A DNA stretch of 42,005 nucleotides from Planctomyces sp. GTDB lineage: Bacteria; Planctomycetota; Planctomycetia; Planctomycetales; Planctomycetaceae. The stretch's first letter is position 1. The number at the start of each line of letters is the position of its first letter. The stretch is taken from the NCBI GenBank assembly GCA_005778115.1, contig SXKJ01000059.1, forward strand, positions 1-42,005, given 5' to 3'. Positions 857 through 42,005 of the stretch are shown here, piece after piece. The translations under genes were made by a program, and so were the position numbers. The notes below the pieces were generated by a model, which saw only the letters and a list, made by a program, of their open reading frames with translations, searched no databases and was not told the origin of the DNA.

Positions 857-916
857 CCGTACCGCGACCGTTAGGGAGCGGCCAACGCGGGCCGCTCCCT
901 AACGGTCGCGGTACGG
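857..916. repeat. Long perfect inverted repeat, family A copy 1
   Basis: Two 27-base arms are exact reverse complements (857-883 and 890-916) around a six-base loop. The outer arm begins CCGTACCGCGACCGTTAGGG. A second copy lies at 18673-18724, so this is a dispersed element rather than a local terminator; there is no T-run after the stem. It lies in a 257-base gap between two genes of the same direction. Confidence 0.9.
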
Positions 917-9884: not shown

Positions 9885-9899
9885 AGGCAGTTTCAAAAC

Positions 9900-9966
9900 C
9901 AGCACGACGCGCGAGCGAGTGGTTGTCTTTTGCGGCATGTTGACCACTCGCTCGCGCGTCGTGCTG
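9900..9966. repeat. Perfect 24-base inverted repeat between convergent genes
   Basis: Arms 9900-9923 and 9943-9966 are exact reverse complements (CAGCACGACGCGCGAGCGAG is the start of the left arm) with a 19-base loop; an imperfect extension (GTTTCAAAA outside left, TTTTGAGAC outside right) lengthens the stem. It sits between the DUF1501 gene and the convergent GDSL hydrolase and could act as a two-way terminator: the outer A/T stretches give TTTT on the plus strand and AAAA before the left arm. Confidence 0.85.
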
Positions 9967-9995
9967 TATTTTGAGACCGCGTCGAGCGACGAACG

Positions 9996-12263: not shown

Positions 12264-12341
12264 CGCTCGTAGTGACCCCATTTATGGGGTCGCGGGCACT
12301 GCCGACCCGACCCGACCCGATAAATCGGGTCACTACGAGCG
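12264..12341. repeat. Compound inverted repeat (cruciform) between convergent genes
   Basis: Outer arms 12264-12278 and 12327-12341 match exactly (CGCTCGTAGTGACCC and its complement). Inside are two further small hairpins, GACCCCATTTATGGGGTC and GACCCGATAAATCGGGTC, and a GACCC tandem. It lies between the DUF1080 gene and glnD and probably separates the two transcripts, although it lacks a T-tract. Confidence 0.8.
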
Positions 12342-15152: not shown

Positions 15153-15231
15153 ACTTCGGAATTTCGGAATTGGCAGAGAGTGGTTATGAAGTAGGTCAGC
15201 TTTCCGTCGGCCGATTCCGAAATTCCGAAGT
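15153..15231. repeat. 22-base inverted repeat with one mismatch
   Basis: Arms 15153-15174 (ACTTCGGAATTTCGGAATTG...) and 15210-15231 match at 21 of 22 bases. Each arm itself contains a tandem TTCGGAAT. It is located between the divergent glnD and the first small Imm-like gene, so it is not a terminator by position. Confidence 0.8.
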
Positions 15232-18544: not shown

Positions 18545-18672
18545 GACGGGATCAACCCGGTTTTGTTGGGATAGCAGAAACCGCAAAGTTGCGGATCGGT
18601 AATTACCCAGCGGAATCGGTTTTCGTTTCGGACATCCGGTCGAAGGCGGCCAAGAGTGAGACCTCTCTCCGA

Positions 18673-18724
18673 ACCGCGACCGTTAGGGAGCGGTCAGCGT
18701 TGACCGCTCCCTAACGGTCGCGGT
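18673..18724. repeat. Long perfect inverted repeat, family A copy 2
   Basis: Arms 18673-18696 and 18701-18724 are exact reverse complements with a four-base loop. The outer part of the arm is the same as in the copy at 857-916, but the loop-proximal base pairs differ and do so in a paired way (see findings). It lies in the shared promoter region between the divergent adaptor and ATPase genes, 31 bases upstream of the ATPase start. Confidence 0.9.
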
Positions 18725-18755
18725 ACGGATTTCGGCGAACACGACGGGGATCGTA

Positions 18756-21838: not shown

Positions 21839-21903
21839 ATCAGCCGCAGGGCGCTAGCCCCGGTTGGGACGGCATTAACTGGGGCTAGCGTCCTGCGGCT
21901 GAT
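21839..21903. repeat. Inverted repeat, family B copy 1 (CAGCCGCAGGGCGCTAGCCC)
   Basis: Arms 21839-21865 and 21877-21903 match at 25 of 27 bases around an 11-base loop. A related copy sits at 27041-27105. It follows the TolC gene by 75 bases. The palindromic GCTAGC core is shared by both copies. Confidence 0.88.
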
Positions 21904-35418: not shown

Positions 35419-35790
35419 GGCTATCCGGCAAACTTCAGCAAGACCGGCAGCATCCGCTCAAGTCGTGAGGAAATGGCCTCAGTCAGCGCGACTCAACGCA
35501 TCGCAGGGATCGGAGCAATCCGCGAAAGACTTCCGGTCGTAGCAGTCGTGCCCAACGCTCAGGGCCGGCCGCGAAGCCGCGACGGCGACAACAGACGGGG
35601 CCGTCAGCCAGACATTTCGAGCAGACTTTTTGGCGAGTGGGGCGGCGTCAGCCCCCCGGTTCTGCGATCACCGTACTGGGGGGGCTGACGCCACCCCGCT
35701 CGCCTGTGTCGTTTCTGGCGGCGCGGGCTATAAACTCGGACGTCGCGTCACGCCTTGGAACTGCATCACTTCAACACCGCTGGCTCAACG
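35419..35790. other. 372-base gap between divergent ftsK and tilS
   Basis: Apart from the inverted repeat at 35632-35704 I see nothing recognisable. Promoters for ftsK and tilS should be here. The ORFs crossing it have no domain. Confidence 0.5.
35632..35704. repeat. Inverted repeat with GGCGTCAGCCCCCC arms
   Basis: GGCGAGTGGGGCGGCGTCAG onwards on the left pairs with CTGACGCCACCCCGCTCGCC on the right, 26-base arms with two mismatches around a loop that itself contains GATCACCG. It is in the divergent ftsK-tilS gap, so it is not a terminator of either gene. Confidence 0.85.
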
Positions 35791-39604: not shown

Positions 39605-39669
39605 GTAGGTTGGGCACTCTTGCCCGACCTTTTTGAGCGCAAATGGACGGGCAAGAGTGCCCATCCTAC
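39605..39669. repeat. Inverted repeat with GTAGGTTGGGCACTCTTGCC arms
   Basis: Arms 39605-39629 and 39645-39669 match at 23 of 25 bases. It sits between the divergent sulfatase and lipA starts, so both transcripts could start inside or cross it. A related unit is coded inside the RbfA-like gene at 31636. Confidence 0.85.
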
Positions 39670-41948: not shown

Positions 41949-42005
41949 GTGGGTCGAGTCATCGAGACCCACCAGCACGCCGAAATCGTGGTGGGTCTCG
42001 ATGAC
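41949..42005. repeat. Repeat family C, copy 2, cut by window end
   Basis: GGTGGGTCGAGTCATCGAGA and CCCACCA form the left half; from 41989 the sequence TGGTGGGTCTCGATGAC is its reverse complement, and the window ends there. It lies after holB. Copy 1 is at 25443-25471. Confidence 0.82.

Follow-up and report, generated by a model that had tools for sequence, protein, structure and literature searches.

A tagless hairpin family in a planctomycete genome: inverted REP doublets probably moved by a class-3-like RAYT

REP/RAYT systems are known mainly from Proteobacteria, where the REPs carry GTAG tags. The elements considered here resemble the REPINs of Pseudomonas fluorescens SBW25, described together with their RAYTs by Bertels and Rainey (2011, PMC3116915), in having an inverted REP doublet as the replicative unit, a long hairpin, conserved arms around a variable spacer and a specific tyrosine transposase. 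Unlike the SBW25 elements, they have no GTAG tag, their RAYT probably belongs to another class and roughly ten of their copies lie inside genes; moreover, compensatory changes are reported to be common in SBW25 spacers, whereas matched changes in the planctomycete arms occur at chance level. Class 3 of the TnpA_Y1 transposases is rare, found mainly in Planctomycetes and Acidobacteria and accompanied by REP-like flanking structures that reach about 600 copies in Solibacter (Quentin et al. 2018, PMC6006769). Our family shares with this class the host phylum, the REP-like flanks and the high copy number, but its CCGCGA REP does not fit the published 5' foot CnGA and its internal loop is a symmetric GA/GA. 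That foot is present in the CCGGA and CCCGA REPs of sister RAYTs (L132-L134, L146, L151, L156 and L157); the published class was not split into such REP families. REPs of E. coli form a hairpin with a conserved 2x2 stem mismatch that is required for TnpA_REP activity (PMC8266576), and the small hairpin described below has a 2x2 stem mismatch as well, but with GA/GA in place of AA/GC and without a GTAG motif. Finally, Rickettsia palindromic elements and intragenic REPs have been found as in-frame insertions of 20-30 residues in unrelated proteins (PMC3733652); our palindromic repeats likewise sit in frame within unrelated proteins and, unlike the Rickettsia elements, have an identified linked transposase family. 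REPIN/RAYT systems as a kind are already known; the tagless REP architecture, the link to a class-3-like transposase and the in-frame insertions distinguish this family. The REP, which lacks a tag and has a hairpin architecture of its own, is here linked to a RAYT that probably belongs to a little-studied transposase class.

Two hairpins in the window and their family in the genome

The window, by which we mean the whole stretch of 42,005 nucleotides that was analysed, belongs to a genome of 7.43 Mb in 515 contigs and contains two copies of the element, with the following features.

857-883, plus strand: left REP arm of copy 1, CCGTACCGCGACCGTTAGGGAGCGGCC
884-889: loop of copy 1 (6 nt), short-loop type with a 10-nt spacer between the 18-nt cores
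890-916, minus strand: right REP arm of copy 1, reading CCGTACCGCGACCGTTAGGGAGCGGCC on this strand
824-960: likely extent of a longer unit around copy 1 (about 140-150 bp), from flanks compared by eye
18633-18748: 116-bp insertion holding copy 2, from empty-site comparison
18668-18696, plus strand: left arm of copy 2, with a derived C-to-T change at loop-proximal position 26
18701-18729, minus strand: right arm of copy 2, carrying the matching change

In copy 1 (857-916) the inverted repeat is perfect over 27 bp and encloses a 6-nt loop. Copy 2 (18668-18729) has 29-nt arms, a 4-nt loop and one mismatch, CCGAACC facing GGTACGG, which is uncompensated and corrects an earlier description. Next to the loop, copy 1 reads GGCC/GGCC and copy 2 GGTC/GACC, exactly as a previous sequence-only reading had reported for two hairpins with near-identical arms, and its statement that the host genes are unrelated also holds, since copy 1 neighbours polysaccharide deacetylase and AhpC/TSA genes and copy 2 HlyD and ABC transporter genes. 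Both copies fold far better than shuffled sequence, with minimum free energies on the plus strand of -64.4 kcal/mol (z -11.4) for copy 1 and -60.0 kcal/mol (z -9.8) for copy 2 and similar values on the minus strand. An Rfam search of the window returned nothing above the gathering threshold for the hairpins, a tRNA being the sole match. Arm matches within the window number just four, all of them arms of the two copies (0.44 expected).

Genome-wide, the arm has 240 matches at up to 3 mismatches, compared with 24 for the reversed pattern, so that the search proposed by the sequence-only reading revealed far more than two copies. In the 447 kb fetched around these matches we counted 85 inverted doublets, 84 of them distinct, of the arm CCGTACCGCGACCGTNAGGGAGCGGCC. 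With 84 doublets against only about 5 genuine solo arms, the REPs occur mainly as hairpin-forming inverted doublets, the organisation that defines REPINs. Most of the spacers that separate the 18-nt cores measure 10 or 18-24 nt, and their sequence varies; in some subfamilies 10-45 nt of outer sequence is common to the members, indicating that the copied unit can exceed the hairpin. By eye, the outer flanks of copy 1 are similar to the ones seen around other short-loop copies (ATACCYCACGCGGTCATCGGTGAGAGGATTG ... ATTTCGTCGGCCTCAAAA), albeit diverged and with approximate limits, and copy 1 seems to be a diverged representative of this longer short-loop unit.

A single arm can fold as a small hairpin, CCGC-GA-CC-GTNA-GG-GA-GCGG, in which a CCGC/GCGG stem of 4 bp leads through a GA/GA internal loop to a CC/GG stem of 2 bp that is capped by a GTNA loop. 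The same structure is the predicted DNA fold of the single arm, with an energy that is unexceptional for its composition (z -0.9). The REP has no GTAG/CGTC tag, its outer bases being CCGTA or CGAG. Since each arm can form a small REP hairpin and the arms are paired in inverted orientation, the doublet corresponds to a REPIN. We consider it very probable that the hairpin is a REPIN, a mobile element of some 60-150 bp that is non-autonomous and consists of two inverted REPs, probably moved by a class-3-like RAYT.

Insertion, turnover and a linked transposase

Copy 2 provides a clean insertion. In six genomes of the same genus (L287-L292) the HlyD/ABC intergenic region is without the element and CGTTTCGGA directly adjoins GATCGTAATG, while the insert is present in the source genome (116 bp in the window) and in the relative G004. 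Mobility, as expected of a REPIN, is thus evident from an insertion with its empty site. The insertion ends derive from this one locus, the one clean insertion, where no clear target-site duplication was found. Copy 1 has no usable empty site because its upstream gene differs in the relatives; the informative loci in that alignment were the plus-strand ones. Of the REPIN loci fetched from the relatives G010 and G002, no more than about a quarter match a REPIN-bearing locus in the source genome, so the positions of the REPINs turn over.

A candidate transposase gene lies on contig C136 at 730-1281, with doublets on either side at approximately 646-729 and 1287-1369. Its product matches the Y1 transposase family (PF01797, E 9e-8) with the HuH motif HVH, and the gene is frameshifted near its 5' end. 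The Y motif is YTLDEQ, homologues have YTLHEQ, YVVEKQ or YVINEQ, and the class 3 signature is Y..[AENY]EQ; we call the RAYT class-3-like, an assignment made from the Y motif and the host phylum. Searching with the C136 protein, we found homologues in 69 of 150 genomes of the family. In G073, G032, G135, G085, G093 and G024, homologous RAYTs are flanked on both sides by variants of the same REP, so that the link to a specific RAYT is seen in C136 and in six other genera. Other homologues adjoin different REPs of the same plan, for example CGAGCCGGAAGCGTCAGCGACGGG and AGCCCGACGCGTCAGCGAGGG, and those closest in sequence (G130, G079, G126, G066 and G106) carry other REP variants. When the plan was defined strictly (outer stem, GA with at most one extra base, 2-bp stem, GTNA, 2-bp stem, GA, outer stem), the fold adjoined 12 of 30 RAYTs, on both sides for 10, and was found nowhere else in the 30 RAYT loci and not once in shuffles. 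REP and RAYT co-segregate across several genera, the REP type clustering on the RAYT tree with 3 changes compared to 8.4 when shuffled. The roughly 84 doublets, the empty site shared by six relatives and the family of linked transposases support the earlier proposal of a copied mobile structural element in place of a gene-specific regulator.

The frameshifted C136 copy is the only cognate RAYT found in the source genome, for which reason the REPIN family is presumably now largely inactive in this strain. A close RAYT was not found in G002, G004 or G010, although these genomes are rich in the REPIN, possibly reflecting a lost transposase or incomplete assembly.

Taken as a mechanism, the single-stranded arm would fold into a short imperfect hairpin that is probably recognised by the class-3-like TnpA_Y1, a HuH single-strand tyrosine transposase. 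The RAYT would cut beside this hairpin and could transfer the excised strand to a new site with no duplication of the target. That the long hairpin is perfect would be a consequence of the same REP occurring twice in opposite orientation, and the agreement between its arms would come from copying of the whole doublet.

Changes between and within the arms

The paired change in copy 2 had been taken as a sign that the secondary structure is under selection. The change itself is real: at the copy-2 locus G004 has GCGGCC-AGCGCC-GGCCGC, i.e. GGCC/GGCC, and hence the T/A pair is derived in copy 2, whose right arm is the exact complement of the left with one more loop-ward base included. If the long hairpin were a selected RNA or DNA structure, paired stem changes would be compensatory, and the matched C-G to T-A change of copy 2 relative to its G004 orthologue is what one would expect, as is a matched change at arm position 13 of L062:3059 (contig C121) relative to two relatives. 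Divergence between orthologues is also lower in the arms (7.2%) than in the spacers (21.9%) or the flanks (11.6%), but this difference is partly ascertainment, because the copies were found by arm similarity. The counts do not favour such selection. With subtype position 16 and two copies from another subfamily set aside, 4 matched two-sided changes were present genome-wide compared to 2.6 in shuffles (255 of 1000 shuffles reach 4), next to 130 one-sided changes. At 15 orthologous loci we found 51 one-sided changes and four affecting both arms (2 matched, 2 unmatched), whereas about 2.2 double changes would be expected if the arms changed independently. Covariation of the stem across other copies, which the sequence-only reading had put forward as a check, is accordingly at chance level between the arms, and the long stem shows none beyond that due to copying as a unit. 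We consider a selected long hairpin improbable. An apparent excess of two-sided changes (16 versus 3.5) proved to be an artefact of the two copies from another subfamily. Concordance at subtype position 16, seen in 70 of 83 doublets, was likewise rejected as a sign of stem selection: at orthologous loci this position had changed on one side in every case seen, and its concordance therefore reflects copying as a unit. For the paired change in copy 2 the simplest explanation is chance or a template switch from one arm to the other during replication; such switching has been described as a hairpin mechanism (PMC8794818), and one occurrence would yield the change in one step. As this case warns, one change of compensatory appearance provides weak evidence for a selected RNA structure when the palindrome is perfect, and the many orthologous copies make this distinction testable.

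Covariation is found within the arm. The pair G8-C23 is replaced by A8-T23 in 9 arms where about 0.9 would be expected, namely 4 in the source genome, 3 in relatives and 2 in named contigs, with expectations of 0.5, 0.4 and 0.03, respectively (combined p 3.5e-8 over the three data sets, ignoring relatedness). These arms differ in subtype and spacer, and G-T intermediates at this pair are common. The within-arm covariation suggests that what is recognised is the small REP hairpin, and agrees with a RAYT that reads a short imperfect hairpin, as in E. coli TnpA_REP (PMC8266576); structure seems to be important after all, at the level of the small hairpin of the single arm. Apart from position 16, the most frequent one-sided core change is C-to-T at the CpG of position 23 (16 of 166 arms), which usually leaves a G-T pair in the small hairpin.

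Two other readings were weighed against a RAYT-moved REPIN. The stem is very stable on both strands and many copies lie in short intergenic gaps, as might be expected of a bidirectional transcription terminator or an mRNA-stabilising hairpin, but no consistent U/T tract follows the stem as in a Rho-independent terminator, about 12 copies lie between divergent genes and only 8 between convergent ones, several are in frame inside genes, and presence at orthologous loci is patchy, which together make this function highly unlikely. Just as improbable in our view is that the element is a MITE belonging to a DDE transposase, or some other mobile element, and has the RAYT as a neighbour by coincidence: some short-loop copies do have longer outer inverted repeats, but homologous RAYTs adjoin the same REP in six other genera, and the clean insertion at copy 2 lacks a clear target duplication.

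REPINs inside genes, distribution and other repeats

Greedy ORF calling placed 33 copies inside ORFs. Since many of these ORFs are spurious or have their start codon downstream of the repeat, we counted as intragenic only cases supported by Pfam, which leaves roughly ten REPIN copies in frame inside protein genes, among them the following.

L062:3059: aminotransferase
L070:2697, L095:2182, L103:2580 and L114:1481: PSCyt2/PSD1 proteins
L072:2636: polyketide-type protein
L090:2307: FAD oxidoreductase
L101:937: glycerate kinase
L107:2780: gene with a Pfam domain

Most in-frame REPINs read VPRP[S/L]GSG...PLP[N/D]GRGT. In the aminotransferase, whose insertion is retained in G010 and G002, residues 258-288 are encoded by the REPIN, and it is exactly there that the alignment with a solved structure is broken; the insert interrupts the core of the fold. 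Doublets with exact arms were present, among the matches listed, in named genomes from several classes of Planctomycetota, including Phycisphaerae, Isosphaera, Gemmataceae, Pirellulales and other Planctomycetota, as well as in MAGs labelled Acidobacteria, Sumerlaeota and Gammaproteobacteria, labels that can be wrong for MAGs; this taxonomic spread is a lower bound. We tentatively suggest, as a possibility that we rate somewhat below even, that class-3 RAYTs serve a separate, phylum-wide REP superfamily in which a GA-GA plus GTNA code replaces the GTAG tag and whose REPINs have repeatedly entered genes in the one preferred frame given above. If so, a mobile DNA hairpin would also be a recurrent source of protein insertions.

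The window holds further repeats. For the long inverted repeats at 9895-9971, 12264-12341 and 15153-15231, a few relatives exist in other parts of the genome or in G010. The repeat AGCCGCAGGGCGCTAGCCCCGG at 21839-21903, with 30 matches in the 447 kb and 0 for the reversed control, is probably another REP family. At 35632-35704 there is another REP-like inverted repeat (GGCGAGTGGGGCGGCGTCAGCCCCCC; 49 matches in the 447 kb, 0 in the reversed control), and a second RAYT, on contig C85 (L041), lies between similar arms. GTAG-type REP-like repeats are located at 39605-39669 and 41958-42005, and arms like those of the latter flank a different RAYT on contig C501 (L046). The source genome seems to contain several REP/RAYT systems at once.
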